Shown: in pieces, positions 23,228-42,070 of the stretch | Layout of the letters: each line of letters starts with the position of its first letter | Numbering within the stretch: the stretch's first letter is position 1 | Source of the DNA: Candidatus Kuenenia stuttgartensis | GTDB lineage: Bacteria; Planctomycetota; Planctomycetia; Isosphaerales; Isosphaeraceae | Direction: 5' to 3' | Assembly: GCA_945865635.1 (NCBI GenBank) | Contig: CAMBEP010000013.1 | Location: 1 to 64,000, forward strand | DNA length: 64,000 bases | The notes under the pieces: model-generated | Database searches by the model: none | Told to the model about the DNA's origin: nothing | The model's input: the letters and a program-made list of their open reading frames with translations, nothing else | Program-made: the position numbers and the translations under genes

Positions 23228-24019
23228 ATGAAAATCCGCTTGATTCCCTCTAACACGGATGGCGATCCGGAAATTCAGTTCCTGACAAGTCTATTGGTGG
23301 ATCAATCCACCTTATTCGACGCAGGCTCTGCGGGCTTTTCGTGCCATGAAGTCGCCCTTCAAAAGATTACAAATATCTTCATATCTCATGCCCACCTCGA
23401 CCACGTGGCCTCGCTGCCCTCTTTGCTGGAAGCCTATATTGCATTTCAGTTGCCCCCACCCATGATCTGGGGCAGTGCCGAAACTCTGTTGAATCTCAAA
23501 GAATTATTGTTTAACAATCGGCTCTGGCCCGATTTTTTTGAGCTTGGATCCCCCAAAAAGCCATTGATCAGGATCTCTGAGTCTGTGGATTATAGACCCA
23601 TTCCGCTTGATGGCTTGCGAGTCACTCCAATTCCTGTCAGTCATGTGATCACCACTCAAGGCTATTTGGTCGAGTCTGATTCGGCGACAGTCATGATCTC
23701 GTCAGATACAGGGCCGACCACAGCCTTCTGGGAGATTGCAAACCAGCAGAAACGGCTCGATGCAATTATTCTTGAAGTTGCATTTCCTGACAGCATGCAA
23801 ACTATGGCCAATGCGGCCTGCCACCTCACACCGAAAGCCTTTGGCAAAGAAGTTGCCAAACTGACCAGTCATGACCCCCAGATTTTGGCTGTCCATTTGA
23901 AACCGTGGCTGCGATCGAAAATTGTTCAAGAACTTCAAGACCTGAATCTTAAAAAACTCGTCGTAGCTCGATCAGACTGCGACTATCAATTCCCTGATAC
24001 CCAAATCGGTACCAATTGA
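23228..24019 (+). CDS. class II 3',5'-cyclic-nucleotide phosphodiesterase-like MBL protein
   Basis: This encodes 263 residues from ATG 23228. It has a metallo-beta-lactamase fold with the metal-binding signature SHAHLDH near residue 57, an early DAGSAGF segment, ISSDTGPT near residue 157, ILEVAFPD and a late HLKPW. This order matches the PF02112 class II cyclic nucleotide phosphodiesterases rather than generic MBL hydrolases. It lacks a signal peptide, so it is cytoplasmic. A class III cyclase lies at 40109 and a two-site cyclic-nucleotide-binding redox protein at 29375, which supports cAMP or cGMP breakdown as its role. The gene stands alone and converges on the cytochrome gene ending at 24160. 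RNase Z-like activity is the main alternative. Confidence 0.8.
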   Translation: MKIRLIPSNTDGDPEIQFLTSLLVDQSTLFDAGSAGFSCHEVALQKITNIFISHAHLDHVASLPSLLEAYIAFQLPPPMIWGSAETLLNLKELLFNNRLWPDFFELGSPKKPLIRISESVDYRPIPLDGLRVTPIPVSHVITTQGYLVESDSATVMISSDTGPTTAFWEIANQQKRLDAIILEVAFPDSMQTMANAACHLTPKAFGKEVAKLTSHDPQILAVHLKPWLRSKIVQELQDLNLKKLVVARSDCDYQFPDTQIGTN

Positions 24020-24045
24020 AGCCGGTTTGCAGGCCTCTATACTCT

Positions 24046-24125
24046 TCGCGGCCATGAATGGCACTTTTTGATCGAGACGATGCCGGAGGCATCATTCTGA
24101 TACGATGTATCATGTGTGGCCGCGA
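24046..24125. other. nested inverted-repeat element in a convergent intergenic region
   Basis: An outer perfect 9-bp stem (TCGCGGCCA at 24046-24054, TGGCCGCGA at 24117-24125) encloses two perfect small hairpins: GATGCC-GGA-GGCATC at 24079-24093 and TGATAC-GAT-GTATCA at 24098-24112. The element sits between the convergent stops of the phosphodiesterase and a cytochrome gene. No long T-run follows, so it is not a textbook terminator. It could be a bidirectional terminator, a structured RNA or a REP-like element. Confidence 0.55.
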
Positions 24126-24159
24126 CAACTCTAAGATCGACAAATTTGAAAAAAAACCA

Positions 24160-25770
24160 TTACTCCCTGATCTGTTTCACAATCTGTTCCAGCAATGACC
24201 GGAATTTGTCAGGTTGATATGCGTTTGCAATTCTCAGACGGTCGGCCAATAATTCTGTGACGGAAATCTGTTCACCGGTTTTGATCATTGGTGAGTTTTG
24301 ATCCGATTGGCTGGCGCGGAGGCTCAAACCCAGCAGGTTGTCGATTTCATTCATTTGGGTCATGACCTTTTCCGACCTTGATTTGTCAAGGCTGAATAAA
24401 GAGATACGCAAGGCCCAGGCAATCTGGCGGGCTGAGTCAAAATCGAAAGGGTCTAAGGGCAATTCGGTAAGCAATGAGTCGAGAAACAATTCGAATGATT
24501 TCGGAAACTCACCTGAAATCATTTTCCCCGTCTGATTCCATTGGTCATGTAGCTTTTGAATGATTCGGTCAAGAAGTGCAATGGCTTGCCGGATTGCATT
24601 TTCTTGATTTTTTGAATCGCTGCCATAGGGGCTTTTGGTAAGCTCAAGATCCACTTTCTGAATCAATTCATGAATTTGATTTTCGGTCGCTTTCCAGTCA
24701 TCAGGTGCAGCAAGAATCAGGCTCAGGCGGACTAGCCTGCGCGGCCACTGCGGCAGCCTTGGTCGGCCAGGTGCTCCGGCAGATTGCCGGGTTTGCCGCC
24801 ATCTGGATTTTGGGGAGGCAATATTATGATGGCACGCACTGCAATCAAACACCGAAAATTCCGGATCTCTATTAATGCCCGAAGTTTTATGGGGATCCAT
24901 GGAATCGCCAATCAGTGCCAGTTCGGTTCTTAACAGGATCAGCCCTGAGGCTGCGAGCAATTCGACTGCACTTGCTGTGGGTGTTTTTTTCAATTCAAGT
25001 GGGTCTTGTGTCTCATTTGATGACAACCAGTGCCGGGGCATTTCGGCGATAAAACTGGCCACTTCCAAGCCTTGTAATGGAGGGTGGCCAGCGGCATACA
25101 TTTCGTGGCTGATTCTGCGCCCGAGTTGATCATCGGTATCGCCCACGTGGCATGAGATGCAAAGTCGGGCCTGGTTCACCGGGTTCTTTAAATGGGTCAG
25201 TCCATATTTTTGCCAGCGGTCCGGGCCTCTTGTATTTTTCCAATCGGGATCGGCAGCGGCGACATGCTCGATAACCCATTCTTTACTGCCCCCGTGGCAG
25301 GCAACACAGGTCACACCTTCGCGAGCCCTTTGCAATGGATTTTCAAAATAGGCGGTGGGTGTATTTTCCGGGACATTCATGGAATGGCAGCCAAGGCATT
25401 GTTTGGCTTGATGCAGGCTGGCGATTCCCAAATTGTCGGCAATTCGCTGGGCACGAAGTCCCGCTGGGGTTGTTTTCTTGTCGTCGTCAAACCAGTCAAA
25501 TGCAATTCGATGCTTGTCCATTTTGTTCCAGGTCAGCCATTCGGTCATCTGGCAATGATCGGTTTTTTTTGAGGGCTGATCGTGGCATCCGGTACAGTGT
25601 CTGGCTCCGAATATATAAGGTTTTACGCGGGTTTGAACAAAACCTTCCTGCGCCTGGATTGAGGATTGACAGATCACGAGAATCAATGCAATCAAGCGAA
25701 TTGCCTGAAAGCTGGCGTCAAAGGCGCTGAGACCATGGCTCATCCGCAATCTGAGGAATCGTGTTTTCAT
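24160..25770 (-). CDS. pentaheme cytochrome c, c554-like family
   Basis: This encodes 536 residues from ATG 25770. A long N-terminal signal (AIRLIALILVICQSSIQAQ) directs export. Five CxxCH motifs are visible: CTGCH, CLGCH, CVACH, CISCH and CSACH, all in the first 60 per cent; the C-terminal part is helical without hemes. The segment SHEMYAAGHPPLQGLEVASF is shared in form with the upstream neighbour (NHDMIAAGHPRLAFEMASY), so the two are old paralogs of the cytochrome c554/c' type. The genes lie 63 bp apart on one strand and probably form an operon. A periplasmic electron-carrier role is likely; the partner is unknown but may be the diaphorase encoded divergently. Confidence 0.88.
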   Translation of the reverse strand: MKTRFLRLRMSHGLSAFDASFQAIRLIALILVICQSSIQAQEGFVQTRVKPYIFGARHCTGCHDQPSKKTDHCQMTEWLTWNKMDKHRIAFDWFDDDKKTTPAGLRAQRIADNLGIASLHQAKQCLGCHSMNVPENTPTAYFENPLQRAREGVTCVACHGGSKEWVIEHVAAADPDWKNTRGPDRWQKYGLTHLKNPVNQARLCISCHVGDTDDQLGRRISHEMYAAGHPPLQGLEVASFIAEMPRHWLSSNETQDPLELKKTPTASAVELLAASGLILLRTELALIGDSMDPHKTSGINRDPEFSVFDCSACHHNIASPKSRWRQTRQSAGAPGRPRLPQWPRRLVRLSLILAAPDDWKATENQIHELIQKVDLELTKSPYGSDSKNQENAIRQAIALLDRIIQKLHDQWNQTGKMISGEFPKSFELFLDSLLTELPLDPFDFDSARQIAWALRISLFSLDKSRSEKVMTQMNEIDNLLGLSLRASQSDQNSPMIKTGEQISVTELLADRLRIANAYQPDKFRSLLEQIVKQIRE

Positions 25771-25833: not shown

Positions 25834-27309
25834 TTATCTGACTTTGGTCGCAGTTGTGGCCTGCAGGCGAATTTTCAGCATGTCCAGCTCCCTAAGCACC
25901 TGGGGGCTCATCCACTGCTTGCCATGATATCTGGCCAGAGAGCTCAGTGTCAGGAATCGCTGAGCTTCTTCATCCCAAGCTTTGGGGGCTGGATCCGTGC
26001 TGTTATGGATTTGCTGATCCAGGATTTGCTTGATTTCATTTGGGCTCAAGCCAGTTTGGTTTCTTTGATCAGCGAGGTCTCGGAGTTTTTGACCGATTTG
26101 GCGGCTTTCAAGAGCCATTTTCGGACGATTCGCAACGGGTGATTGCATCAGTTTCCCATAATTGCCGAAGAGTTCGACAAGGCCCCCCTGCTCCATTGGG
26201 TTTGGGCGGACTAGCGGTTCGATTCCGCTAAAGTACCAGGTGCCCCAAGCTGGCCTGCCGAGCCTTTGGCCGGGCTTTTTCAGGGCGGCCAGTTCCGGGG
26301 TCAATTCCTGATGGCAGGAATAGCAGTTGGTTTCAGAAAATTCGGGCCATGGAGCCGCTTGGGATTCGGCTCTTGCGGCGGAGAGCTCCAGAGCGGCAGA
26401 GGCCGTTGCCAGCCGGCCTGTGGCCCATAGCCAGGCGCTTCGTTCACTGGCCGACGGGGCTGGTGTGCGTATATTTTCTGACCATCGGGCGGGTTTTTCA
26501 CACCAGTGATTCGCGTGAAGGTCGCTGTAGGAGGCCATCTCGAACGCCAGTCGCGGATGGCCTGCGGCAATCATGTCGTGATTCATGTCGCGATCGGCCA
26601 GGTTGGAGTCGTTACGGTTTCCGACATGGCAGCCTGAGCAAATCTGTGTTCGCTGGAGCAGGTTTTTCGTGTCCCAGAACTGATAATCCCGCTGTTTGGT
26701 CCGTGAGTCCAAAGTGCGCCAGTTGGAGGTTGTGTGCTGGCTGATCCAGTCTGAGGCTGGCCCGTGGCAGGATTCGCAGCCGACACCGTCGGGGTTGAGC
26801 TGGGAGGTGACCTCGAATTCTGGCTCGGACCTTGGCAAGGTGTGACATGATAAGCACCTGAGATCTTGATACGCAGGCACGACTGGTCCGCCCTGGGCGA
26901 GATTCGTGGCGATTTTCGTTGCCAGATCGTCATAGAGAATACTGAACGAGCGGCTATGGGGGTCGTCGGTCATCCAGACGGTGTATTCACTTCTCCAGAT
27001 TTCGGAGCTGGGTTGATCCCCACAATTTTGTCGACCGACTCCGCCATGGCATGCAATGGCGGAACAGGAGCCAGTGCCCTGGAAAGTTCGGAGATTTCCA
27101 GAAGTCTTTGGCAAATTGGTCCTGGCAGGAGTTGACGGTTCCGTCAAAGCCGGGGGCAAAGACTGGCCGCGACGCGATGAATCGGTCTCCTGGCCCAGCA
27201 GCGAGGCCATGATCGAAAGAATGGCGATTCCTAAAACGGATGCGATACCGCTGGCTCGCAGGCTTCCCATCGTTTGACTTTCCATGAATTCCAGATTTCC
27301 CTGACTCAT
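25834..27309 (-). CDS. multiheme cytochrome c, c554-like, with one CX4CH site
   Basis: This encodes 491 residues from ATG 27309; a later in-frame ATG (MESQTM or MGSLRA) may be the true start, since the signal segment GIASVLGIAILSIMASLLG follows it. Four CxxCH motifs (CLSCH, CESCH, CSGCH, CYSCH) and one CSAIACH (CX4CH) are seen; CX4CH can bind heme in some cytochromes. The NHDMIAAGHPRLAFEMASY motif marks it as a paralog of the downstream gene. It is transcribed divergently from the NuoE-NuoF fusion gene, across an intergenic gap of about 175 bases that should hold both promoters. Periplasmic electron transfer is inferred. Confidence 0.87.
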   Translation of the reverse strand: MSQGNLEFMESQTMGSLRASGIASVLGIAILSIMASLLGQETDSSRRGQSLPPALTEPSTPARTNLPKTSGNLRTFQGTGSCSAIACHGGVGRQNCGDQPSSEIWRSEYTVWMTDDPHSRSFSILYDDLATKIATNLAQGGPVVPAYQDLRCLSCHTLPRSEPEFEVTSQLNPDGVGCESCHGPASDWISQHTTSNWRTLDSRTKQRDYQFWDTKNLLQRTQICSGCHVGNRNDSNLADRDMNHDMIAAGHPRLAFEMASYSDLHANHWCEKPARWSENIRTPAPSASERSAWLWATGRLATASAALELSAARAESQAAPWPEFSETNCYSCHQELTPELAALKKPGQRLGRPAWGTWYFSGIEPLVRPNPMEQGGLVELFGNYGKLMQSPVANRPKMALESRQIGQKLRDLADQRNQTGLSPNEIKQILDQQIHNSTDPAPKAWDEEAQRFLTLSSLARYHGKQWMSPQVLRELDMLKIRLQATTATKVR

Positions 27310-27485
27310 GCTGGTTTACATGAAATCTCTATCATGTAATATTATGCTAACCGATAAGTCGTCGAGAAACAGGTGCCAAGATCTGATTTCCCAGTCGTTA
27401 AAGCCGGACCAACTGGCCAAGTCCATCCTCTTCCGGACCGATTCCACACGATTCAAAGAAAACAAGTTTTTCAAGGCAGGTGGCG

Positions 27486-29378
27486 ATGGCCAGCACACCT
27501 TCGATCAATTCAGATTTTTCACCACCCAGGCTGATTCCCCGCCTGCGCACGATTCAGGAGACATCAGGATACCTGCCTCGGGCGAAACTGGAGTCGCTTT
27601 CAAGCGAACTTGGGATCCCGCTCCATAAAATTCATGAAATTGTCAGTTTCTTTCCACATTATCGGCTTGAGCCCGCCGCGCCGGTTCATATACGTGTCTG
27701 CCGCGATCTGGCGTGCGACCATGCTCGGGCTGCGGATGTGAAGACGCGACTTGAGGAACTGGCCCAAACGTTTGGTGCGGATCGTGTCCAGGTGGAATGG
27801 ACCAGTTGCCTGGGGTTGTGCGATCGGGCACCTGCCATTCAGGCCGAATTTGATTCGCCGGGCCAGCACTCCATGGCGATCGACGATCATGGCCAGCGGC
27901 TTGATGCGCTTACAATTCGCCTGAAAAAAACCATATCCAAGTTTTTTGAAAGTGGAGCGGGCTCTCTGAATCAAGCCACTACGGCAAGCCTGAACCGGCC
28001 AGGCTGGCGGCTTGATTATCGCCATGATGGGGATCTGGTTTATCCGGAATTTCATGCGGTGAGGGGTTTTGCAGAGCGATTACGTGATGCGGGCACACAG
28101 GCGGAAAGGTCGGCTGTGATGCAATGGCTTAACGATGAAATGAAGCGTGCCGACTTGAGAGGCATGGGCGGAGCCGGCGTGCCGACCTTTCGCAAGTGGC
28201 TCGACGTCAAATCCGCCAAGGGCAGCAAGCGATTTCTGATCTGTAATGGAGATGAAAGTGAGCCATTGACATTCAAGGACCGCGAACTGCTTTTGCAGAC
28301 ACCTGATATCGTGCTTGAAGGCATGATTTTCGGCGGTCTTTTTGCAGGCGCCACCAAGGGCTATGTTTATATTCGCCATGAATATCCAGCTCAGATTCAT
28401 GCGATGGAGCAAGCCATCAAGCGGGCCTATGAGGCGGGCGTGCTGGGCAAAAATATCCTGGGAACCGGACTCGACCTGGAAATTGAAGTTTTCATCAGCC
28501 CCGGTGGGTATGTCTGCGGCGAGCAGAGTGCTTTGATCGAAGCCATTGAGGAGAAGCGATCCGAGCCGCGGAACAAGCCTCCTCAAATTGAAACCAACGG
28601 TCTTTATGATTGTCCGACATTATTGAATAATGTGGAAACCTTTGCCTGGGTTCCCGCCATTGCCCATCATGGTGGGGCCTGGTATGCCGGAAGCGGCATT
28701 CAGGGCGGGCCTTGGTATGGGAGGCCGGGGCGGCGCAGTTCCGCCTCGAGGGGACTGCGATTTTTCTCGATTTGCGGCGATGTCAATTCGCCTGGTGTGT
28801 ATGAGGTCCCCAACGGCACCACTCTTGGAGAGCTCATCAAACTCAGTGGAGGGATGCTGGATCAGCTTCCCCTGTTTGCATTTGCGCCTTCAGGCCCATC
28901 GGGTGGATTCCTTCCGGCTCGGCTTGGCCGGGAGATGATCGCTCCGGAATTTCAGAGAGCGTTTCCAGCCGAACTCAGCGAGCTTGATGTGCTTGATTTG
29001 CCATTGGATCTGGATGAATTCCGAACCCTTGGACTGATGCTGGGCGCAGGCATGATGGTCTATGCGGATCGGCCTGAACGGAGACCTGACATGCTTGCAC
29101 AAGCCCTTTCCGCAACCCTTTTTTATCGCAGGGAATCGTGTGGCAAATGCGTTCCGTGTCGAATTGGATGCCAAAAACTTGTCCAGATTGGCGAAGCCCT
29201 GACTCTGAGCAGTCGGACAGACCCGACTGAGCTTGAGCATTTGGGACAGCTTGTTCAGGATCTCAGCGAAACTTTGGAACTGACATCGATTTGCGGGCTG
29301 GGAACATCTGCTTCCAAGCCTCTGGCTTCGTATCTGACCTATTTTCTGGAACCGAATGATCAGGGGAATGGCTCATGA
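27486..29378 (+). CDS. HoxF-like NADH dehydrogenase subunit (NuoE-NuoF fusion)
   Basis: This encodes 630 residues from ATG 27486; a GTG two codons earlier is also possible, but AGGCAGG is better spaced for the ATG. Residues about 10-150 form a thioredoxin-like [2Fe-2S] domain (VCRDLACDHA, then TSCLGLCDRAPA). Residues about 190-540 are NuoF-like, with GMGGAGVPTFRKW, CNGDESEPLTFKDRELL and GGYVCGEQSALIEAIE for NADH and FMN binding. An SLBB-like stretch (CGDVNSPGVYEVPNGTTLGE) follows, then a [4Fe-4S] site SCGKCVPCRIGC near residue 551. This is the layout of HoxF or FdsB diaphorase subunits. No hydrogenase or formate dehydrogenase genes are nearby. Its stop overlaps the next start (ATGA), so it forms a complex with, or at least is co-translated with, that protein. 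Confidence 0.93.
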   Translation: MASTPSINSDFSPPRLIPRLRTIQETSGYLPRAKLESLSSELGIPLHKIHEIVSFFPHYRLEPAAPVHIRVCRDLACDHARAADVKTRLEELAQTFGADRVQVEWTSCLGLCDRAPAIQAEFDSPGQHSMAIDDHGQRLDALTIRLKKTISKFFESGAGSLNQATTASLNRPGWRLDYRHDGDLVYPEFHAVRGFAERLRDAGTQAERSAVMQWLNDEMKRADLRGMGGAGVPTFRKWLDVKSAKGSKRFLICNGDESEPLTFKDRELLLQTPDIVLEGMIFGGLFAGATKGYVYIRHEYPAQIHAMEQAIKRAYEAGVLGKNILGTGLDLEIEVFISPGGYVCGEQSALIEAIEEKRSEPRNKPPQIETNGLYDCPTLLNNVETFAWVPAIAHHGGAWYAGSGIQGGPWYGRPGRRSSASRGLRFFSICGDVNSPGVYEVPNGTTLGELIKLSGGMLDQLPLFAFAPSGPSGGFLPARLGREMIAPEFQRAFPAELSELDVLDLPLDLDEFRTLGLMLGAGMMVYADRPERRPDMLAQALSATLFYRRESCGKCVPCRIGCQKLVQIGEALTLSSRTDPTELEHLGQLVQDLSETLELTSICGLGTSASKPLASYLTYFLEPNDQGNGS

Positions 29379-32044
29379 ATTCGGATCAAGCCGCAAAAAC
29401 TTCATCGTCCGGTTCAGGCGAGAAACTGTCGTTGCAAGCCCATCCATCAACAGATTTATTGGATGAAAACACCTGGCTTGAGGAGGATTTGTTTGCACGC
29501 GACAGCGATGGCCAGCTCCTGCGGATGGATCCAGCCACGCGTGATGAGCTTCAGACGCTTATCACAGTGCGTATCGATGGCCGCGAGGTGGAAGTGCCCA
29601 AGGCCGTGCCCAAAACGGATTCCATGGGCGATGTCCTGCGCGACGAAAATGGAATGATTATCCCCCGTGCCACAACAATTTATGACGCCGTCAGCCTGGC
29701 CTACAAAAATCAGTCTGGCGAGATCTCAGCCGTGGGGCAGAGCCGGGAAATTGCGATTTCCAGGCTGAGCCAGGAGCTATCGTTTACGCAGAGCAGTCAG
29801 GAGCTGTTTTCATCGTCGAATTTTGGGACTCAGATCTCTTCAAATCCGATACCGATTCTGTGCCACCGCGACCACCAGGAGCCGGTGGGTGTTTGTCGGG
29901 TTTGTGTGGTTCAGATTGCGAAGTTCAAGGCCAGGACCGGTCAGGTATCAGTCGAACGCAAGCTTTTGCCGTCCTGCCAGCACAGGGTTGAAGAGACCAT
30001 GGTGATCGACACCATGGCATCGCCCGACGAGAAGGCCAGAAATCGCATTAAAAAGTCGGTCAATACACTTGTAGAATTGATGCTTTCGGACCACCCAAGC
30101 CCATGCGAAAAAGAACGCAGGAATAAAGGCGACTGTGAACTTGAATCGCTTGGAAAACGCCTGAAGGTCGGGCCCAACCGATTCCGTCCGTCCGAGAAAT
30201 CGGCAGTGAAGTCGAAAATCGACCAATCCTCGCTGGTCATTTCCGTGGACCACAGCGCTTGCATTATGTGCGATCGCTGCATTCGTGGCTGCAATGAAGT
30301 GCGCGACAATCAAATTCTTGGCAGGGCTGGAAAAGGCTTTGATGCCACAATTGCATTTGATCTTGGCGACCCAATGGGCGAGAGCAATTGCATTGCATGC
30401 GGCGAATGCATGATTTCGTGCCCGACCGGCGCCCTGACATTTCGCACCAAGGTTGGGACTGAACTTGAAGGCGAGCCTGTGAATGTGGCAAAACTCTCCC
30501 GCCATAAAATTCGAGAAATCCGCAAGGCATTTTCCGGTGTATCAGGACCATTTCTGAGGTGGAATGAAGGTGCAATTGTTCGCCGAAGATTTGCAGATGG
30601 AGAGATGATTTGCAAGGAAGGCGAATTTGGTTCGACAGCCTTTTTGATTGAAGAAGGTGAAGTCGAGATTTTTCTAAAATCGCCTGTAAAGAGCCTCAAG
30701 AATCAGCCAGAAAAAGGCCTGTTGAACCGGATTCGAAAAACATTCCAATCCAATCTTTTTGCATCTGATGAAATGCAGGGCATGGGCCGAACGATTTTTG
30801 TGGATGCTCCGGAGAGTCTTGACCTGAGGAACCCGCGCGCACGGCTCAAGTCAGGCGACCTGTTTGGCGAAATGACATGCATGAACAACTATCCACGATC
30901 AGCCACAGTCAGGGCCGTGGGAAATGTGGTCGTTCTGGAAATGCTTCGCAATGTGCTTTATGTGCTTCAGCGAAGCCCGGAATTCCGCAAAAAGTTGCAA
31001 ACGGTTTACCGCGAGCGGGCGATTGATAATCATTTGCGAAATGTGCCATTGTTTGATTCTCTGAAAGCTCGCCCTGAGGCTTTTCAGGAATTTGTGGATA
31101 CCATGCGTGAGGAGGTGGTGCTGCGAAGGCTCATGCCGGGCGAAGTGATTTTCAAGCAAGGAGCACCGGCTGTTGACGGTCTTTACCTGATCCGTACAGG
31201 GTTTGTCAAAGTCAGCCAAACCCGGCCCGGCGGCGACGGCGAAGTGGTTTTGAATTATGTTGGGCAGGGTGGTTTTGTGGGAGAGATCGGCCTGCTGGCC
31301 GGTCTGCCCGAACTGAGCGATTTAGGCGTTTCACCTGTGAGAAATGCAACCTGCACCGCGCTGGATCACGTCGAACTGGTTCGTATCAGCTCGGAAGATT
31401 TTCGCGAGATGATCTCAAAATATCCCGAAATTCGTTCCTCATTGATTGAGGAAGCTAGAAAACGGCTTTTCGACAATAGTAAGATCCTGAAAGAACTCTC
31501 CTCGAAAACGCTCGACACTTTTCTGGAGCAAGGCCTACAGGAGGCGCAAAGCCTCTTGGTTTTAGATCTTACAAAATGCACGCGGTGTGATGAATGTACG
31601 AAGGCCTGTGCCGACACGCACGGCGGAGTGACCCGATTGATTCGCGAAGGGCTTAGATTCGACAATTTTCTGGTTGCAAGTTCGTGCCGGTCGTGTCTCG
31701 ATCCCTATTGCATTGTCGGATGCCCCGTGGGCTCGATCAGACGCCGGGACTCACGTGAAATCGTGATTGAAGACTGGTGTATCGGTTGCGGTCTGTGTTC
31801 GCAGAATTGCCCTTATGGCAATATCAACATGGTCGAAATTCCGACAGAAACGGGGACAGGCCGGAAAGCTCAGTCGCCGACATCAGCCAAGGCAACCACA
31901 TGCGACCTCTGCCAATCGCTTGGAGCAGGAACCGAACCATCCTGCGTCTATGCCTGCCCGCATGATGCCGCTCACCGGATGAGCGGAATCGACCTTCTCT
32001 CGATTGTAAAAAACAAATCGCGAATTGCAGAATTCACATTGTAA
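29375..32044 (+). CDS. NuoG-like Fe-S / dual cyclic-nucleotide-binding / poly-ferredoxin fusion
   Basis: This encodes 889 residues, with its ATG overlapping the upstream stop. Domains in order: NuoG/HoxU-type [2Fe-2S] site (CHRDHQEPVGVCRVC near 162, SCQHR); a His-Cys region HPSPCEKERRNKGDCEL that lacks one canonical cysteine; two [4Fe-4S] sites (CIMCDRCIRGC near 296, CIACGECMISCP near 339); cyclic-nucleotide domain 1 (about 392-545) with the phosphate-binding FGEMTCMNNYPRSAT; domain 2 (about 555-700) with VGEIGLL and PVRNAT; and a DmsB/HybA-like C-terminus (732-872) with four more [4Fe-4S] motifs. It probably takes electrons from the NuoE-NuoF partner. Binding of cAMP or cGMP in the middle could gate transfer between the two ferredoxin parts. 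Cytoplasmic; no signal seen. Confidence 0.92.
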   Translation: MNSDQAAKTSSSGSGEKLSLQAHPSTDLLDENTWLEEDLFARDSDGQLLRMDPATRDELQTLITVRIDGREVEVPKAVPKTDSMGDVLRDENGMIIPRATTIYDAVSLAYKNQSGEISAVGQSREIAISRLSQELSFTQSSQELFSSSNFGTQISSNPIPILCHRDHQEPVGVCRVCVVQIAKFKARTGQVSVERKLLPSCQHRVEETMVIDTMASPDEKARNRIKKSVNTLVELMLSDHPSPCEKERRNKGDCELESLGKRLKVGPNRFRPSEKSAVKSKIDQSSLVISVDHSACIMCDRCIRGCNEVRDNQILGRAGKGFDATIAFDLGDPMGESNCIACGECMISCPTGALTFRTKVGTELEGEPVNVAKLSRHKIREIRKAFSGVSGPFLRWNEGAIVRRRFADGEMICKEGEFGSTAFLIEEGEVEIFLKSPVKSLKNQPEKGLLNRIRKTFQSNLFASDEMQGMGRTIFVDAPESLDLRNPRARLKSGDLFGEMTCMNNYPRSATVRAVGNVVVLEMLRNVLYVLQRSPEFRKKLQTVYRERAIDNHLRNVPLFDSLKARPEAFQEFVDTMREEVVLRRLMPGEVIFKQGAPAVDGLYLIRTGFVKVSQTRPGGDGEVVLNYVGQGGFVGEIGLLAGLPELSDLGVSPVRNATCTALDHVELVRISSEDFREMISKYPEIRSSLIEEARKRLFDNSKILKELSSKTLDTFLEQGLQEAQSLLVLDLTKCTRCDECTKACADTHGGVTRLIREGLRFDNFLVASSCRSCLDPYCIVGCPVGSIRRRDSREIVIEDWCIGCGLCSQNCPYGNINMVEIPTETGTGRKAQSPTSAKATTCDLCQSLGAGTEPSCVYACPHDAAHRMSGIDLLSIVKNKSRIAEFTL

Positions 32045-32183
32045 TCAGCCATATAACCTTAAAAGAACGATTGCATTTGCAACCTTGTTACGAAAGAATT
32101 GTATTTCAAAGAGGTTTTGATTGCGAACATTTAGCTGCTCGGGAATCAGTATAAGATTTACCGGTTTTAATTCATAAAAAGGT

Positions 32184-32654: not shown

Positions 32655-32660
32655 TTAAGA

Positions 32661-34991
32661 TTATGTCCGTGGGATAGGATAATAGCGGGTTGGGATGCCG
32701 CGAAAAGCTGTATTTGAGCGTGTTGGTAAAGTAATATTCTGAGGGCCCTGAATTTTCTTGAGTGGATCAATCAGCGGCTGGCGATTGAATTTCATGTAAG
32801 GAATGCGCACTCCGCGCACGCTGAACTGATCTGCTCTTGGAGCCTGTTTGACCAGCGATTGATAGCCCACTGCGCCTGTATAAGTCACAACATCGTCTTG
32901 ATCCACTCCATCTCCACTAATCCCAAATCCGCCTGCCAAACGGGTTGTTCCAAGAGCTGGATTGGTCGAATAAAGTGGCTGCGAACCGGGAAAGAATATC
33001 ACTCCATTCTGATTTGCAATATCCGACTTGTCCTGAAAATTCTTGGACGGATAAAATGCCGCAACGGCCTGGACGTTGTCATAGGCCGATGCAGCCAGTG
33101 GTGCCCCCTGATTCTTGCCATTGCGTGCAGTGTTTGGGCTATTCAGGATAGAGAATGGTCCTGACTGATATGTATTGATCCCCTCAGGAAAAAACGGCAG
33201 GGCCAAATAACGAAACGATCTGTTTGTGAAACCAACCCCTTTGGGAATCCCTTTGATTTGATCAGAGGGTTGTATTTCATTAGGGTTGGCATAATATGCC
33301 ACGTTTCTGGCCTTGGCTACGGCGACATCAATAGAAAAAAATGTGGAGTCGGGCATTCGATAAATACCCAAAACATTGCCTTTATTGTCGCTTGCCGCAA
33401 TTGTCATTTTCGCAGTGCTGCTCAACGGGAGGCGAATGGCAGAACGCGTGATATTCGCCTGGGTAATGGAACGATCGACCAGATTGACGACATCAGAAGC
33501 CTTTAAATCGCCTGCACCTGCGGCGGCATCTACCGGCTTGGCCAACCAGCCTCCAGCAAGCGGCTGGCCTGCAAGAATGGTACCACCTTGCTTGTTTACG
33601 ATTGCATTATCGCCATTAATTGCACCCAGTGGGAGCCTTGCACCTTCATTCAATAAATTCTCGGTTCCCAATAAGCCTTGGCCGCCAAAAAGTGGCAGGG
33701 TAATTCCCACGAGATCGATTCGGCCTGAGGGGAGTCCGAATATTGACGACGAATTTGGCTTCTTTTCTGTTGTTCCAGGCAAGGCGGGAGCATCACCCAC
33801 AGGGCCCGCAGTGGCGAGATTTTCAGATGGGATTCCGCCGACCGCAACAAATGCAATATACTCTGCTTCAAGCGATCGGTCTGGCTTTTGAGGATCAAAA
33901 AATCCTGCGTCGTTTAAATACGAATTCTCCTCGGTAGCCATTCCAGTCTTTCCAGGAAAAAAGACCCCGATTCCGCCCACAATTGTGTTGTTCTTATAAA
34001 TGGGAATTCCGCCTGGCAGAGTTGCAATTCCACGCGACTGGGCGTCGGGAAAAGTTCCTGTCACTGAGCCCCAGGAATCGGGGGCATTGACATACAATTT
34101 GGCCTTGTTTGGGTCCATTGTCGTCGGAATTGGTTGCGGAGGATTCATTCGTCCATTGTCAACCAATCTGCCAATATCAATAAATTGACCATTCTGGTTT
34201 TTAAGCAAAGGAATTTGCGAATCGGGCACATTGAAGCGATTGGGCAATGCGATATCGTCGGCTGTGCCCCGTATGGAATCGGCTCCGGCATGAATGGTGC
34301 TGTCGCGATTTGTATATTCGATGGCAAAGAGGTCGACTTGCGGCGTGTAGGGGATGTTTGGTGGGAAGTGCCCCTTGGCACCAATGGGAGCCACAAAACC
34401 TGGCCCAAATAAAGGTGAATCTGAGGCTGTGCCGTCGGGAGTGGATTTGACAACCCGCTCTGTCATCGTCGTCTGACTGATGAACTGCACCGTTCTGCTT
34501 GTGAGTGGAGCCTGATTATTGCCAAAAAAGGCCCCAGTGCGGGCCTCGGCCACTGCTCCGTCAATTGCAAATGTTTTGATCGCATTATTGGAAGAGATTT
34601 CGCTGGAAAGGCCCGATTCCATGCGTACACCCAAAATGTTGCCCCCACGGTCAACAATTACGATAATGGCGTCCTGCGATGAGGATACGGCTGATGCGCG
34701 ATCTAGAATCGTTGCGACATCGGATACGCTCAGAGTCTGGTTGACAAGGTTTGCGGAAAGTTTTGTTAATTCTGTGTCAGAAAGTGTCAAATCCGTCGGG
34801 GCAGGATTAATAATCTGGCCTTTGGAAAGGCCCAAAGCCTGATCCCGCTTGACCGCTTGTGAATTGACCTGCTGCTGGCTGCTGCCAGATACGACCACTG
34901 GAGTGATCGAAGCAAGCAATTGCCTGGCCTCCAGGCTCTGAAGGCCTGATGTCAGGGGGAACAACGTTTTGTTTCGCGCACCTGAATTCAT
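32661..34991 (-). CDS. double GlcG/HbpS-like (DUF336) secreted protein with LEARQLLA motif
   Basis: This encodes 776 residues from ATG 34991. LEARQLLA near residue 20 is the planctomycete surface-export motif. Two heme/small-molecule-binding GlcG/HbpS-like domains are visible. The first has IVIVDRGGNILGVRMESG, IDGAVAEARTGAFFGNN and IYKNNTIVGGIGVFFPG. The second has NLVDRSITQAN, ASDNKGNVLGIYRMPDS, DVAVAKARNVAYY and LAGGFGISGDGVDQDD. The C-terminal region carries simple R/P-rich sequence. HbpS-type proteins bind heme or sense redox stress, which suits a neighbourhood full of cytochromes, but the ligand here is unknown. The promoter should lie in the divergent gap to 35277. Confidence 0.85.
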   Translation of the reverse strand: MNSGARNKTLFPLTSGLQSLEARQLLASITPVVVSGSSQQQVNSQAVKRDQALGLSKGQIINPAPTDLTLSDTELTKLSANLVNQTLSVSDVATILDRASAVSSSQDAIIVIVDRGGNILGVRMESGLSSEISSNNAIKTFAIDGAVAEARTGAFFGNNQAPLTSRTVQFISQTTMTERVVKSTPDGTASDSPLFGPGFVAPIGAKGHFPPNIPYTPQVDLFAIEYTNRDSTIHAGADSIRGTADDIALPNRFNVPDSQIPLLKNQNGQFIDIGRLVDNGRMNPPQPIPTTMDPNKAKLYVNAPDSWGSVTGTFPDAQSRGIATLPGGIPIYKNNTIVGGIGVFFPGKTGMATEENSYLNDAGFFDPQKPDRSLEAEYIAFVAVGGIPSENLATAGPVGDAPALPGTTEKKPNSSSIFGLPSGRIDLVGITLPLFGGQGLLGTENLLNEGARLPLGAINGDNAIVNKQGGTILAGQPLAGGWLAKPVDAAAGAGDLKASDVVNLVDRSITQANITRSAIRLPLSSTAKMTIAASDNKGNVLGIYRMPDSTFFSIDVAVAKARNVAYYANPNEIQPSDQIKGIPKGVGFTNRSFRYLALPFFPEGINTYQSGPFSILNSPNTARNGKNQGAPLAASAYDNVQAVAAFYPSKNFQDKSDIANQNGVIFFPGSQPLYSTNPALGTTRLAGGFGISGDGVDQDDVVTYTGAVGYQSLVKQAPRADQFSVRGVRIPYMKFNRQPLIDPLKKIQGPQNITLPTRSNTAFRGIPTRYYPIPRT

Positions 34992-35276: not shown

Positions 35277-37250
35277 ATGACAAATCGTCAGGCTCATTCA
35301 GAGAATTGCAGTTACCAAAAGGGGCATACGCTGGCCATCTCAAGGCGAATCACAAGCCTGATCATGCTTGCCTTGGGCTTTGCCTTGGTGCCTCTGTCGG
35401 CGATGGCCCAATTTGAGCCGACCCCCTATCGATCATCTCCCTTGTCATCAACAGATCCAGAATCGCTTGGTCTGCCCAAATTGCCCTCATTTCTTAATCG
35501 CCCGATTCAGGATGATCTTCCGCGGGTAACGCCATTGCGATCTCCGGATATTGCTGAGAGTTATGAAGAGCCAGTGATGGACCCGCCATTGGGCTATGCG
35601 GGACAATCGACGATCATTCCGACCGAGCCCAGAACGAGTGCCGATGCGATTGCGGTTCCGGATCGCTGGAGGATTGGCTTTCCAGCATGGGACCGGAGTA
35701 AGTCGGGCGGCCAGATTCGCGAGGTGGATTCGCCGTATTCGCTAGGCCGGTGGTGGGATCCATACAATCAGAATCAGTTCAAGGGCGACTATCCGATTAT
35801 CGGCCAGAACATTTTTTTGAATGTCATGGCGAAGGCGGATTTAGACTTTGAAGGTCGCCAGGCGCCGACCCAGACATCGCCTTTTGAGAGCACATCGAGG
35901 CCCTTTTCGTCAAACTTTTATGGCCGGTCGTCAAGTTTTTTCACATTGCAATATTACAGCATGGGTTTTGAGCTGTTTCATGGAGATGGTGGTTATCGGC
36001 CCGACGATTGGAAGATCAAGATATTGCCGGTCTGGGGGGTGAGCGATTTCTCATTCAGCGAACTATCGCAGGTCAGCCCCAATGTGCTTGAGGGAAGCTC
36101 GCGATTAAGAACCTATTTCAACCCGATTCAGGAAGGATATGTGGAATACCGGCTGGCAGATGTCAGCCCCGACTTTGATTTTATCTCGGTTCGGGTCGGA
36201 AATCAGCCATTTAATCAGGACTTTAGAGGGTTCCTGTTTCAGGACACCACTCGTGGCATCCGATTCTTCGGCAATCTTTTTTCAAACAGGGATCAATGGA
36301 ACCTGGCCTATTTCCGTCAGTGGGAGAAGGATACAAACACGGCCCTGAACACGTTTAACGACCGGCCGCAGAATCTCTTCTTTGCCAACTATTACCGGCA
36401 GGACTTTTTGGTTCCGGGTTATACCATTCAATTTAGTCTTGCCTATGACAATGACATTTCAAACACCAAATTCGACAAGAACCGGTTTCTGGTGCGTCCG
36501 GACGGGGCAGGAATTTTCCAGAGACACACTGTCAATGCAGCCTATTTGGGGTTTGCTGGCGATGGCCATATTGACCGATTCAATTTATCGCATCAGTTTT
36601 ACTGGGCATTTGGCAACGACAGTCTTAATCCGATAGCGAATCAGCCCGTGACGATCAATGCCCAGATGGCTGCCATCGAAGCTTCTTACGATCGCGACTG
36701 GATTCGATTCAAGAGCTTCTTTTTCTGGTCGTCGGGCGACTCGAATGTGAACGACAATAAAGCGACTGGATTTGATACGATTCTGGACGGACCGAATTTT
36801 GCAGGTGGCCAGTTCAGCTACTGGAACCGTCAGCAATTGCCACTTCTTGGTGTAAATCTGGTGCAGCGTCTGTCGCTGGTGCCTGATCTTAGGGCGAGCA
36901 AGATTCAGTCTCAGGCCAATTTTGTGAATCCTGGAATCATGATTCCGGGTATTGGCATGGACATGGATTTGACCCCGAAGCTGCGGCTCATAACCAACTC
37001 TCAATTGATCTGGTTTCAAAACACAAGTTCACTCAAGCAGTATTTGTTTGATGGCAACATCAAGCACTTTATTGGCGGCGATCTAAGTTGTGGGATGGAA
37101 TACAGGCCACTGCTGAGTGAGAACATTACATTTGTGGGTGGAGTTTCGATGCTCGTGCCTGGCGATGGATTCCAGTCGATTTTTGCGAATTTTGGTTCGG
37201 CGGCAAGTTCGATGGTGGCTGGATTTGCGAATCTTGTCATGGCATATTAA
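35277..37250 (+). CDS. outer-membrane beta-barrel candidate next to cytochrome genes
   Basis: This encodes 657 residues from ATG 35277. A signal peptide (SLIMLALGFALVPLSAMAQ) ends near residue 45, so a shorter start is possible. A proline-rich segment follows, then about 480 residues of alternating aromatic/polar strands (FFTLQYYSMGFELFHGDG, RTYFNPIQEGYVEYRLADV, IQFSLAYDNDI, MAAIEASYDRDWIRFKSFFFW) typical of a transmembrane beta-barrel, with many W, Y and F residues at strand ends. No porin family can be named with certainty. Directly downstream come a b-type membrane protein and a decaheme cytochrome, an arrangement that recalls porin-cytochrome conduits (MtrB or PioB roles). That functional link is inference. 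Confidence 0.72.
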   Translation: MTNRQAHSENCSYQKGHTLAISRRITSLIMLALGFALVPLSAMAQFEPTPYRSSPLSSTDPESLGLPKLPSFLNRPIQDDLPRVTPLRSPDIAESYEEPVMDPPLGYAGQSTIIPTEPRTSADAIAVPDRWRIGFPAWDRSKSGGQIREVDSPYSLGRWWDPYNQNQFKGDYPIIGQNIFLNVMAKADLDFEGRQAPTQTSPFESTSRPFSSNFYGRSSSFFTLQYYSMGFELFHGDGGYRPDDWKIKILPVWGVSDFSFSELSQVSPNVLEGSSRLRTYFNPIQEGYVEYRLADVSPDFDFISVRVGNQPFNQDFRGFLFQDTTRGIRFFGNLFSNRDQWNLAYFRQWEKDTNTALNTFNDRPQNLFFANYYRQDFLVPGYTIQFSLAYDNDISNTKFDKNRFLVRPDGAGIFQRHTVNAAYLGFAGDGHIDRFNLSHQFYWAFGNDSLNPIANQPVTINAQMAAIEASYDRDWIRFKSFFFWSSGDSNVNDNKATGFDTILDGPNFAGGQFSYWNRQQLPLLGVNLVQRLSLVPDLRASKIQSQANFVNPGIMIPGIGMDMDLTPKLRLITNSQLIWFQNTSSLKQYLFDGNIKHFIGGDLSCGMEYRPLLSENITFVGGVSMLVPGDGFQSIFANFGSAASSMVAGFANLVMAY

Positions 37251-38376: not shown

Positions 38377-39906
38377 ATGTCCATGGATCAGATCCCTGAG
38401 AAGGCCAAAACGCGTGCATCACGTATCGCTTTTTCGTATTACAATCGACCCGACAGATTTTATCGGTCACGCAAATGGTTTGCAATTGCGTCGACCCTGA
38501 TTGCAACTGGGATTCTGGGAACAGCATGGATCCTGTTCAAGCCTGAAGATACAAGTTCGCGAAATTTCCGATTTACAAGCCTTGCATCGCCCGGGCCGGT
38601 GGCTCGGCCGCATGCCCTTTGGGAGAGCCGGTGCGAGGTCTGTCATAAGGCGGCCGAAGGATTGAATCCGGAGCGGACATCGCCGATTTTTCATTCTGTG
38701 GTTACTCAGGATGCGCGATGTCTTGATTGCCATCGCAATGCGCCTCATCATTTGAATTCAAAACCGGATAAATCACCGGCGTGCGCTACGTGTCATGAGG
38801 ATCATCAGGGACGCTCGATGGATTTAACTGATGTCGGCAACCAGCACTGCACGAAATGTCACACCAATTTGAAAGATTCGCTTGTCCAGGATTCAGAGAC
38901 CGGGAGAAGTGCTATTGCTGGTTTTGGTCCGAAATCACATCCTGAATTCCGATTACATTTGAGCGATCAGTTGCCTGAGAATATCAAGTTCAATCATGCA
39001 TTGCATTTGTCGCCAGGCCAGAATCCTGCTCCTGATGGGTTGGCCCTGATTCGTTTTAAAGACTTACCAGAAAAAGATCGGCTGCGTTATGGGCTCAAAG
39101 GGCCTGAAGATCTTGAAACGGTGGTCAAATTGCAATGCAATTCCTGCCATGTTCAGACTCTGACGGATTCATTGGGAGGTTCGCTCGGGGTGGCGCCGAC
39201 GGGTCAGTTGCGTAACCCATTGTCTGTAAGGTTTGAGCGTGATTGTGCGGCGTGTCATCCGCAAAGTTTTGGAGTATCGGGAGGGCGAACTTTGGCAGTT
39301 CGTCACGGCCTTCAGATTCCTGAGCTTCTGGAAGAATTGCGAGCTTTGTATTTGAAAGAGTATTTTAAGGATAATCCGGCCATTCTGGATCGAAAGCTAT
39401 CGGATTCCGGGATTCCGGGAAAGCCTCAGAAGCTGGCCGACCCGACAGTGGGCAAGGCGATTGCGGAAAGTGTCGAAAAAGGGGCAGAATTATTACTTGG
39501 AAAGTCGTGGAGGGAACTTGGTCCGAGAGGTCGACGCGGGTGTGTGGAATGTCATGAATTTCAGGAGTCAGGATTGGCTGGAAATTTCAAGGTGCAGCCG
39601 GTTTTGGCAACTCGCTCAAAATTGATTGGTGCAAGATTTGATCATGGCCGGCACACGATGATGGATTGTCGGGCGTGTCATGATGCGGAAGGATCCAGAA
39701 ATGCAATGGATCAGCTCATCCCCAAGGTTCAGAATTGTTTTGGATGCCATGGGGAAAGTGGTTTAAGCCGACATGCGTCGGCGAGTGCAGGATCGTCGTG
39801 CGTGACGTGTCATGGTTATCATCAAAAAGGCAAAGGGGCTGATGCAGAATTAAACTCAGCCCGCCCTGCCCTGCCGAGCCAATTTCGCTCGATTCTTGAA
39901 CCATGA
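38377..39906 (+). CDS. membrane-anchored decaheme cytochrome c
   Basis: This encodes 509 residues from ATG 38377, preceded by the strong site GAGGCGGG. A single N-terminal membrane segment (WFAIASTLIATGILGTAWIL) near residue 35 anchors or exports the protein. Ten CxxCH motifs occur: CEVCH, CLDCH, CATCH, CTKCH, CNSCH, CAACH, CVECH, CRACH, CFGCH and CVTCH, with extra histidines nearby for bis-His ligation. A heme-free, lysine-rich insert lies around residues 320-390. Cytochromes of this kind shuttle electrons from the inner membrane across the periplasm. The upstream b-type gene and barrel gene suggest a route from quinol to the outer membrane. Confidence 0.9.
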   Translation: MSMDQIPEKAKTRASRIAFSYYNRPDRFYRSRKWFAIASTLIATGILGTAWILFKPEDTSSRNFRFTSLASPGPVARPHALWESRCEVCHKAAEGLNPERTSPIFHSVVTQDARCLDCHRNAPHHLNSKPDKSPACATCHEDHQGRSMDLTDVGNQHCTKCHTNLKDSLVQDSETGRSAIAGFGPKSHPEFRLHLSDQLPENIKFNHALHLSPGQNPAPDGLALIRFKDLPEKDRLRYGLKGPEDLETVVKLQCNSCHVQTLTDSLGGSLGVAPTGQLRNPLSVRFERDCAACHPQSFGVSGGRTLAVRHGLQIPELLEELRALYLKEYFKDNPAILDRKLSDSGIPGKPQKLADPTVGKAIAESVEKGAELLLGKSWRELGPRGRRGCVECHEFQESGLAGNFKVQPVLATRSKLIGARFDHGRHTMMDCRACHDAEGSRNAMDQLIPKVQNCFGCHGESGLSRHASASAGSSCVTCHGYHQKGKGADAELNSARPALPSQFRSILEP

Positions 39907-40108
39907 CAGAATCGGAACAACAGATTCCAGCGTAATTTGCGGCAACCCTCAAGATTCTTGAAGCCGATTGATTGCATTGTGCGGAATTTGTTCGTACAAT
40001 TAATGGGCATACGAATGATGTGCCGCGAATGTGAAGGTTGACAAGGCGGGTGCTCCCGTGTCGTGATCCATTTTTGGAATTCAAGCATTTTGAGAGGGTT
40101 GGGGAGCA

Positions 40109-42070
40109 ATGTTTCAGTTGAACATTTTCGAGCATGGGGTTTTGAAATGTACCTCCCAGATTGGTTGCCTGACATGGCTTGGGCGTGAATACAACGAAGC
40201 GGAAAGCACCAAGATTCTGAAGCCCTATCAGGGAACGGACCCGAAGGGGCTTCAGTGCTTGCGAATTGCGTATGTGCCGCATTCGGATCATACAATTTCG
40301 CGGTGGTCTCTGAGTCTGATTCCGATCGATTCCGAGAGGGTCAGAATTGAAGTGGCGGGCAAGAATTCCTACATGATTGATGGTTATGTCATGGAGTCGC
40401 TGAAACCGATTGAATTTAAATTGCCGGTTAAGATCAAGGACCGAAACTTTTTATTTGTGCTTGACCCGATCGAAATGAAACCAAGAGTGGATGATGATGA
40501 TGAGGTCAAAGTGCTCGACGTCAAGCCGATTGCCCCATTTTCCAATTACGCTTCGATATCACTTGATTTTGAGGATACCAATAGCTCGCAATCCATGAAT
40601 GACCTGAGCAACTCAGCCCAGATTGCTCCTCTGGTCAATCGGCTTGATTATTCTTTAAAATCGAATGGGAATCTTGATGTGACAGTGGCTCTTAAAATGC
40701 TGGAAGGCATGCTTGGAATCATTCAAAGTGCGGTGACGGATGTCGAATTTTTCGAAAGGGCTGTCCAGGTGATGGTCAATTTGTTGGACCTTGACCAAGG
40801 CTGGGCATTGACACTTAATAAAGCAGGCGAGTGGAAAGTGGTTGCCACGGTTCATAACTCGCGTTCAGATCAGCCGTTTCAGAAAGTACCGAATGACAGT
40901 TTATTGAGAAAGCTCAAGGAGTCGGGCCAGAGTGTCTGGATGCGTCTGGGCGACCAGAATTTGACACGCTCCGAGATATTGATCGGGCTTTCAGAATCTG
41001 TTGGGGCACCGGTTCTAAGCCCATCCGGCCAGGTTGTCGGGGGGTTGTGCGGGATCAAGTTTGTTGATGATTATTACTCGAATTCTGCAATGATTGCATT
41101 AAATAAATCGCGGTCTGAGACGCTTACGGAATTGCGTGTGATCATCATGCAGATATTGGCGGGGTGTGTGGCGTCGGGTATCGCCCATCTTACGATGAAA
41201 GGCGAGCGGGACCAGCTTGAGACGCTGCTTGAGCAATATTTTACGAAAAAGGTTTCGGAGCGGATCAAAAAGGATCCGAATTTGCTGCGCGGATCAGAAT
41301 ATGAAATTACGTCTTTGTTTTGTGATATTCGGAATTTCAGCCGGATCAGTTCGAATCTTGAGCCTGATTTGCTTTTGGAATGGCTTCAGGAATCGCTCTC
41401 TTCAATATCTGAATGCGTACCGGAATATGATGGGATCGTGGTGGATTATATTGGCGACGAGCTGATGGCGATCTGGGGTGAGATCAGTGCGGAAAGCGAT
41501 CATGCTGTAAGAGCGGTGAAGGCTGGATTTGCAATGATCCAGGAGATTGAGCAGCTTTCCGAGATTTGGAAGGAACGCCTGGGCGGGACAGGTTTTTCGG
41601 TGGGTGTGGGGATCAATACGGGCAAGGCTTTTGTGGGAAATATTGGGACACCCCGAAAATTGAAATTTGGAGCGATTGGGAATTCGGTAAATCTGGCGAG
41701 CCGGGTTCAGGGGGTCACGAAATATTTTCAGTGTCCGTTTTTGGTGACGCATCACACGTGGTTGCAGCTTCACGGCCAGTTTCTTGGCCGGCGCATTGGG
41801 AGCGTGTCGCTTGTCAATATTCCTGAGCCAGTGGATTTGCACCAGGTTTTTCCGAGTCGGGATCCTGACAAAGTGCAATTGTGCAGTCTATACGAAAAGG
41901 CTTTGGCTTTTTTTGAGGGTCGTCAGTTCAGCGAAGCGGCAGCAATTGCTGGCCAGATTTTGAATACGCACCGGGATGACCGCCCGTCGATCATTCTGCT
42001 TCAGAGAGCGATTGGCTGTCTGATCGACCCAGGCTCGTTTTCAAAGTCTGTGATCATTCAGGGCAAATAG
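40109..42070 (+). CDS. class III nucleotide cyclase with FHA-like and GAF-like domains
   Basis: This encodes 653 residues from ATG 40109, with GGGGAG just upstream. The N-terminus (about 15-110) looks like an FHA domain (LTWLGRE, then HTISRWSLSLIP). A GAF-like domain lies at about 215-350 (LDLDQGWALTLNKAGEWKVV, GGLCGIKF). The class III cyclase domain occupies about 395-590. Both metal-binding aspartates are present (FCDIRNFS, YIGDELMAIWG), and FVGNIGTPRKLKFGAIGNSVNLASR forms the dimer/substrate region. The position usually occupied by a purine-contacting lysine, just before IGD, holds Asp (VDYIGD), so product choice (cAMP or cGMP) cannot be told. No membrane segment is seen. The gene stands between two multiheme cytochrome genes. 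Confidence 0.9.
   Translation: MFQLNIFEHGVLKCTSQIGCLTWLGREYNEAESTKILKPYQGTDPKGLQCLRIAYVPHSDHTISRWSLSLIPIDSERVRIEVAGKNSYMIDGYVMESLKPIEFKLPVKIKDRNFLFVLDPIEMKPRVDDDDEVKVLDVKPIAPFSNYASISLDFEDTNSSQSMNDLSNSAQIAPLVNRLDYSLKSNGNLDVTVALKMLEGMLGIIQSAVTDVEFFERAVQVMVNLLDLDQGWALTLNKAGEWKVVATVHNSRSDQPFQKVPNDSLLRKLKESGQSVWMRLGDQNLTRSEILIGLSESVGAPVLSPSGQVVGGLCGIKFVDDYYSNSAMIALNKSRSETLTELRVIIMQILAGCVASGIAHLTMKGERDQLETLLEQYFTKKVSERIKKDPNLLRGSEYEITSLFCDIRNFSRISSNLEPDLLLEWLQESLSSISECVPEYDGIVVDYIGDELMAIWGEISAESDHAVRAVKAGFAMIQEIEQLSEIWKERLGGTGFSVGVGINTGKAFVGNIGTPRKLKFGAIGNSVNLASRVQGVTKYFQCPFLVTHHTWLQLHGQFLGRRIGSVSLVNIPEPVDLHQVFPSRDPDKVQLCSLYEKALAFFEGRQFSEAAAIAGQILNTHRDDRPSIILLQRAIGCLIDPGSFSKSVIIQGK

Follow-up and report, generated by a model that had tools for sequence, protein, structure and literature searches.

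We describe a gene cluster in a 64,000-nucleotide stretch of planctomycete DNA (assembly GCA_945865635.1, contig CAMBEP010000013.1, positions 1 to 64,000; hereafter the window) that probably encodes an undescribed respiratory complex for electron transfer from NADH to the periplasm, with a cyclic nucleotide as its direct allosteric regulator, acting through cyclic-nucleotide-binding (CNB) domains set in its iron-sulfur (Fe-S) wire. The host contig is 95 kb long and belongs to a 5.37-Mb draft genome. At the center of the system is a protein in which Fe-S domains and CNB domains are fused (the CNB/Fe-S protein); it is encoded together with a fused NuoE-NuoF subunit (NuoEF), a b-type cytochrome (cyt b), multiheme c-type cytochromes (cyt c), a class III nucleotide cyclase and a class II-type cyclic-nucleotide phosphodiesterase (PDE), with coordinates as given in Table 1. 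There is little doubt that the genes of the locus form one system. An earlier note on this DNA had proposed a 19-kb circuit at 23228-42070, and the genes that it named (cyclase, PDE, tandem-CNB Fe-S protein, NADH subunit, cytochromes, b-type protein and barrel candidate) are intact where it placed them, as judged from Pfam matches, alignments and models. The limits that it set were too narrow, because the cluster runs on to 46318 with a cytochrome that has an LVIVD domain, and it also takes in an HbpS-like gene.

The N-terminal part of the CNB/Fe-S protein is like NuoG, HoxU and HydA and has one 2Fe-2S and two 4Fe-4S motifs, the C-terminal part is like DmsB and HybA and has four 4Fe-4S motifs (16 cysteines), and the tandem CNB domains lie between these two parts. 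In an alignment of 41 homologs drawn from several phyla, all cluster cysteines are invariant or close to it, and the same holds for G498 of CNB1. E499 and R508 of CNB1 and G636 and E637 of CNB2 are invariant, and R656 is nearly invariant. The phosphate-binding cassettes (FGE..PRSATV in CNB1, GE..R.AT in CNB2) occur in nearly all homologs, and both predicted CNB domains have the conserved glutamate and arginine of a receptor for cyclic nucleoside monophosphates (cNMP). The CNB domains were modeled with predicted local distance difference test (pLDDT) values of mostly 80-96. Foldseek searches with the model gave the tandem CNB domains of PKA-R and PKG as the best matches of the CNB pair, and formate dehydrogenase 1 (FDH1) and the HydABCSL hydrogenase as matches of the other parts; the nucleoside-binding PKA-R of trypanosomes was also among the matches. 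The fusion is kept in named loci of Planctomycetota, Acidobacteriota, Verrucomicrobiota, Riflebacteria and Rokubacteria and in one Omnitrophota record. Because the CNB domains are retained even in short forms of the protein that occur without NuoEF, they belong to the core of the system. The earlier note had tied three cyclic-nucleotide genes to the redox genes; this holds for the CNB protein, while the cyclase and the PDE are lineage-restricted partners.

Two variants of the protein were observed. In Acidobacteriota short forms (L134-L137, L139-L143), an FHA-like stretch interrupts the phosphate-binding cassette of CNB2 and CNB1 carries a short insertion at the corresponding position; several of these genomes have no detected class III cyclase. 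In loci L023-L026 (genomes G010, G009, G038 and G037), CNB2 has an insertion of a few hundred residues and there is a smaller one among the C-terminal clusters; cyclase linkage is still present in G009, G037 and G038.

NuoEF carries a 2Fe-2S site, a flavin mononucleotide (FMN)/NADH site, an SLBB domain and an N3-type 4Fe-4S site, and the motifs ESCGKCVPCRIG and RGMGGAGVPTFRKW were found in it. Having both the FMN/NADH motif and the Fe-S cysteines, it is a predicted NADH dehydrogenase module. The open reading frame (ORF) of the CNB/Fe-S protein overlaps that of NuoEF by 4 bp. Among the loci with enough upstream sequence, 47 have both NuoEF and the NuoG-like N-terminus, 13 have neither and none is mixed; one further genome copy (G102, contig C272) has no NuoEF in its stretch. 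This perfect co-occurrence makes it very likely that the NADH module docks on the NuoG-like domain.

On the membrane side, His87, His101, His299 and His313 of cyt b are invariant in 31 homologs and form two H-x13-H pairs (spacing 14), and three column pairs of that alignment are invariant. This is the pattern expected for two b hemes, and the protein is a predicted di-heme b-type cytochrome. In 77 named loci and 40 sampled planctomycete genomes, the same b-type and multiheme c genes are the usual flanking neighbors of the CNB/Fe-S gene. The core of CNB/Fe-S protein, cyt b and cyt c occurs in soil and water bacteria of at least five phyla.

Association with the cyclase and the PDE was compared in an Isosphaeraceae-like family set, which takes in the cultured Tautonia sociabilis (L090) and records titled Isosphaeraceae; many of the genome records compared are metagenome bins. 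A class III cyclase is present in 24/24 family genomes with the CNB/Fe-S protein and in 8/21 without it (Fisher p=3e-6), and the PDE in 19/24 and 2/21, respectively (p=3e-6), simple p-values that are inflated by the shared ancestry of relatives. Family genomes with the PDE always hold a cyclase. In genera g13 and g20, cyclases are found in the genomes with the CNB/Fe-S protein and in none of those without it. The cyclase lies inside the cluster in 10 family genomes (0.27 expected). Across several genera the order of the genes is reshuffled and their membership kept, and the presence of cyclase and PDE tracks that of the CNB/Fe-S protein genome-wide, even where the genes are on other contigs. 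G018, G040 and G042 have a second site, where the cyclase and PDE are grouped with the genes for the barrel, the LVIVD cytochrome and HbpS.

The linkage recurs outside the family. In planctomycete families f31, f8, f43 and f2 and, as a weaker match, in f52, the CNB/Fe-S gene has a cyclase nearby (9 genomes, 0.75 expected); when each family lineage was counted once, the phylum test of this linkage gave p=0.001. The PDE stands beside that cyclase in f31, and ten of the system's genes lie within 37 kb in f8. Mere co-occurrence of cyclase and CNB/Fe-S protein across the phylum was not used as evidence because so many of its genomes (268/392) have a class III cyclase. In an Acidobacteriota locus (L100), genes for NuoEF, CNB/Fe-S protein, cyt b, cyt c, PDE and an FHA-GAF-cyclase follow one another nearly gapless on one strand. 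The cyt c of this array is also multiheme, with the same layout as the decaheme cytC of the window, and no class III cyclase other than that of the array was detected in the genome. A search of the class to which the L100 genome belongs added no more than three relatives; each is a short form, and the fetched stretches hold neither cyclase nor PDE. In a Verrucomicrobiota locus (L114), a CHASE2-type cyclase adjoins the CNB/Fe-S gene. Weak cyclase matches near G260 and L141 and a second one at L114 (E ~1e-6) were not counted. Conserved linkage had been set beforehand as the first test of the earlier note's claim, and it is found in the diverged, reshuffled family loci, in f8, f31, f43 and f2 and in the Acidobacteriota array, which is more than chance would give; together with the tracking of the CNB/Fe-S protein by cyclase and PDE, it supports the view that cyclic-nucleotide and redox genes form one system.

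The PDE family is found beside cyclases in G024, G179, G172, G220 and G102, and many f20 genomes have it next to a small CNB protein. The PDE-cyclase pair of G172 neighbors a CNB-fused type II NADH dehydrogenase (NDH-2), a second, different NADH-oxidizing enzyme under apparent control by the same kind of sensor. Such a fusion (Pyr_redox_2, NDH2_C and cNMP_binding domains) was seen convergent to a PDE - FHA-GAF-cyclase pair (L183:11995-13959, minus strand, with L183:9561-12031). The f20 arrangement, a PDE in tandem with a small single-domain CNB protein (L147-L150, L152-L157, L160, L163 and L165-L167), is possibly a separate signaling pair.

The best solved relative of the window PDE is yeast 3',5'-cNMP phosphodiesterase 1 (4ojv). 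H54, H56, D58, H59, H139, D160, H199 and H223 are invariant in 8 relatives, and with the metallo-beta-lactamase fold, the HxHxDH motif and the further metal ligands the protein is a predicted hydrolase of the class II type. It is not assigned to the NF041851 equivalog, since its score is below the NCBIfam cut-off. The best solved relative of the window cyclase is Pseudomonas aeruginosa CyaB (3r5g); the metal-binding aspartate pair and the transition-state asparagine and arginine are present (FCDI, GD, VNLASR), as predicted for a class III cyclase. The linked cyclases of L100 and L114 carry a K/T purine-specificity pair. In a cyclase tree, used for coarse grouping only on account of weak forks and long-branch warnings, the window-type, f31, L100 and L114 cyclases do not group together. 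The difference of the last three from the window type suggests that different cyclase types were recruited separately to the locus.

Two other cyclase loci were recorded. The genome's only other detected class III cyclase (G000:C13:90343-90801, locus L066) is on the same contig, ~48 kb from that of the cluster. Six class III cyclases lie nearly in tandem in a same-genus genome that lacks the CNB/Fe-S protein (G034:C56:12473-27175).

These features suggest the following path. NADH would be oxidized by NuoEF, and electrons would pass to the NuoG-like Fe-S part of the CNB/Fe-S protein, through or past the tandem CNB domains to its DmsB-like part, and from there to the di-heme b protein, the membrane-anchored decaheme c and further periplasmic or outer-membrane cytochromes. 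They would be discharged outside the cytoplasm, possibly via the barrel and LVIVD-cytochrome pair. The first and last parts of the path follow from the families of the proteins. The nucleotide would be made by the cyclase and removed by the PDE, and on the CNB pair it would open or close the Fe-S path. The case for gating is the placement of the CNB domains, which in the chain separate one group of clusters from the other, and the linkage of cyclase and PDE. Ligand binding, assembly of the complex, the direction of the electrons and the sign of regulation are what we infer from the sequences. On balance, we think that ligand binding controls electron flow. For the fuller proposal, that a second messenger from a dedicated cyclase and PDE gates NADH-driven transmembrane electron transfer via the CNB domains in a complex family found in at least five phyla, we would put the chances at even.

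Several observations weigh against this reading. Most loci outside the Isosphaeraceae have no cyclase or PDE nearby, and the named loci beyond the Isosphaeraceae-like group show a modest enrichment near the core (3, with 0.69 expected; p=0.03). Four genomes with the core (G318, G467, G468 and G470) have no detected class III cyclase and keep the CNB residues; as the cyclase/PDE pair is absent from such genomes, a dedicated local cyclase is not obligatory. The window cyclase has D/G in place of the ATP-type purine-specificity pair (Lys and Asp/Thr), so that its substrate, ATP or GTP, and with it cAMP or cGMP as product, is not readable from the pair. The fold model of the CNB/Fe-S protein has a predicted template modeling (pTM) score of 0.66, and the placement of the CNB domains relative to the clusters is unreliable. 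The inflation of the family p-values by ancestry also counts here.

The loci with no cyclase or PDE nearby, and the part of the linkage that is explained by shared ancestry, are what would be expected if the two signaling genes were passengers in a co-inherited respiratory gene island and acted elsewhere in the cell. We consider this very unlikely, because membership persists despite reshuffled gene order, genome-wide presence and absence track even across contigs, the intergenic gaps in L100 are near zero, and different cyclase types appear to have been recruited independently in f31, L100 and L114. Conservation of the CNB residues in the four genomes that have no detected cyclase fits a real redox complex whose CNB domains have a structural role or a different small ligand, the cyclase and PDE then serving CRP-type transcriptional control of the same genes. 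Many proteins with the CNB fold do not bind cAMP, the trypanosome PKA-R being an example. Both cassettes nevertheless retain the glutamate and arginine that hold the cyclic phosphate, the cyclase and PDE genes associate with the CNB-bearing protein, the G172 pair has a further CNB-fused NADH dehydrogenase as its neighbor, and the analyzed genes of the window cluster include none of the CRP type; this explanation is the strongest of the alternatives, though an unlikely one.

The direction of flow is not fixed by anything in the sequence, and modules of the NuoEF type are reversible, as established for complex I and NAD-reducing hydrogenases. Extracellular donors might thus reduce the outer cytochromes and the complex reduce NAD+, with uptake controlled by the nucleotide. 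Reduction of NAD+ from multiheme cytochromes is, however, usually uphill; no ion-pumping subunit is among the analyzed cluster genes, and the short forms lack NuoEF altogether, which leaves inward flow distinctly unlikely. A fusion of Fe-S and CNB domains could also work in reverse, as a redox sensor in which the state of the clusters alters CNB affinity and is buffered or reported through the nucleotide. With seven conserved cluster motifs and close linkage to the cyt b and cyt c genes, the protein looks like a wire and not like a single-cluster sensor, and we regard reverse operation as highly improbable. Nucleotide-gated outward flow from NADH is the reading that we prefer.

The barrel was modeled with 18 strands (mean pLDDT 61). 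AlgE, a barrel of 18 strands, is the best match in fold, and MtrB was not among the top matches. A porin-cytochrome conduit of the MtrAB/PCC type was the first idea for this part of the cluster; it was downgraded because the model has 18 strands and resembles AlgE. The barrel gene adjoins the LVIVD-cytochrome gene in many relatives, and the HbpS-like gene is a frequent neighbor of the system. Porin-multiheme cytochrome clusters of Verrucomicrobia, which fall in the same broad group of bacteria, also combine a barrel with multiheme cytochromes and are predicted to serve extracellular electron transfer (PMC5615132). Unlike those clusters, the one described here has a linked NADH module, CNB/Fe-S protein, cyclase and PDE, and its barrel has 18 predicted strands. 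The texts of that paper and of another published account of porin-cytochrome clusters make no mention of cyclic nucleotides.

With its fused NuoE-NuoF with intact motifs and the NuoG/HoxU/HydA-like N-terminus of the CNB/Fe-S protein, the system resembles the NADH module of complex I (NuoEFG), HoxFU, HydABC and FDH1. It differs from NuoG in that two CNB domains and a DmsB-like domain with four clusters take the place of the rest of the protein, and from complex I, NAD-reducing hydrogenases and formate dehydrogenases in that its partners are di-heme b and decaheme c, not a membrane arm, hydrogenase or formate dehydrogenase. The analyzed cluster genes include no membrane-arm subunits, and the NuoG-like part is N-terminal only; the system is not classed as complex I. 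The C-terminal 16-cysteine arrangement is like that of the four-cluster ferredoxin subunits DmsB, HybA and NrfC, but it is fused behind CNB domains, and the membrane partner has heme-ligand histidines whereas the NrfD type is heme-free. As a CNB-fused effector with tandem domains and canonical cassettes, the protein is comparable to PKA-R and PKG, the mycobacterial Pat acetyltransferase and family 2B encapsulin; unlike in these, the output is an Fe-S electron path. In Shewanella, cAMP-CRP governs extracellular respiration transcriptionally, which likewise joins a cyclic nucleotide to a multiheme cytochrome pathway, but in the present system the electron-transfer protein itself contains the receptor. 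We know of no described electron-transfer complex with built-in CNB control. CNB-fused effectors and NADH-linked complexes each have precedents; none was found for their combination.

Table 1. Genes of the cluster in the window, with strand and the evidence for each assignment.
Feature	Coordinates	Strand	Evidence
PDE, class II-type cyclic-nucleotide phosphodiesterase, metallo-beta-lactamase fold, 263 amino acids	23228..24019	+	PF02112, E=4e-15; HAHLDH motif intact
cytA, secreted multiheme cytochrome c, 5 CXXCH, c554/c7-like	24160..25770	-	Pfam, heme count; linked in relatives
cytB, secreted multiheme cytochrome c, 4 CXXCH and 1 CX4CH, c554-like	25834..27309	-	PF13435, E=9e-11; linked in relatives
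NuoEF, fused NuoE-NuoF NADH-oxidizing subunit, GTG start	27480..29378	+	PF01257, PF01512 and PF10589
CNB/Fe-S protein (cNMP-FeS)	29375..32044	+	PF00027 x2, E=2e-32; several Fer4 families
HbpS-like, GlcG/HbpS heme-binding/degrading domain, probable extracellular protein	32661..34991	-	PF03928, E=9e-14
Outer-membrane beta-barrel candidate, N-terminal signal	35277..37250	+	Model, 18 strands predicted; no Pfam family
cyt b, integral membrane di-heme b-type cytochrome (predicted), 321 amino acids	37372..38337	+	Alignment, hydrophobic segments; no Pfam family
cytC, membrane-anchored decaheme cytochrome c, 10 CXXCH	38377..39906	+	Pfam, heme count; adjoins cyt b in nearly all loci
Class III nucleotide cyclase, 653 amino acids	40109..42070	+	PF00211, E=4e-19
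Large secreted multiheme cytochrome, 9 CXXCH and 1 CX4CH, C-terminal LVIVD beta-propeller	42137..46318	+	Pfam, heme count

Two overlapping small ORFs without a family match lie between the CNB/Fe-S and HbpS-like genes (32045-32654, minus strand) and are candidate genes. Farther along the window, a 492-amino-acid ORF (54496-55974, plus strand) has a partial match to a family A DNA polymerase domain (PF00476, E=4e-18). Bins titled Candidatus Kuenenia stuttgartiensis carry the locus (L067, L068, L091 and L123); their near relatives are in Isosphaeraceae-like and other planctomycete bins, and these titles are probably wrong.

The analysis puts a name to a widespread electron-transfer complex of CNB/Fe-S protein, cyt b and multiheme cyt c. 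A word-matching search of the open-access literature, which does not prove absence, found no earlier description of it. Bacterial second messengers are usually seen as controlling respiration through transcription. In this complex an electron-carrying protein contains the receptor domains, and it keeps them in different phyla and even in forms that have lost the NADH module. If the ligand gates the path, the complex would directly connect cyclic-nucleotide signaling with electron flow, give the class III cyclases of planctomycetes a defined role and offer a redox module under ligand control that might be of use in bioelectronics.

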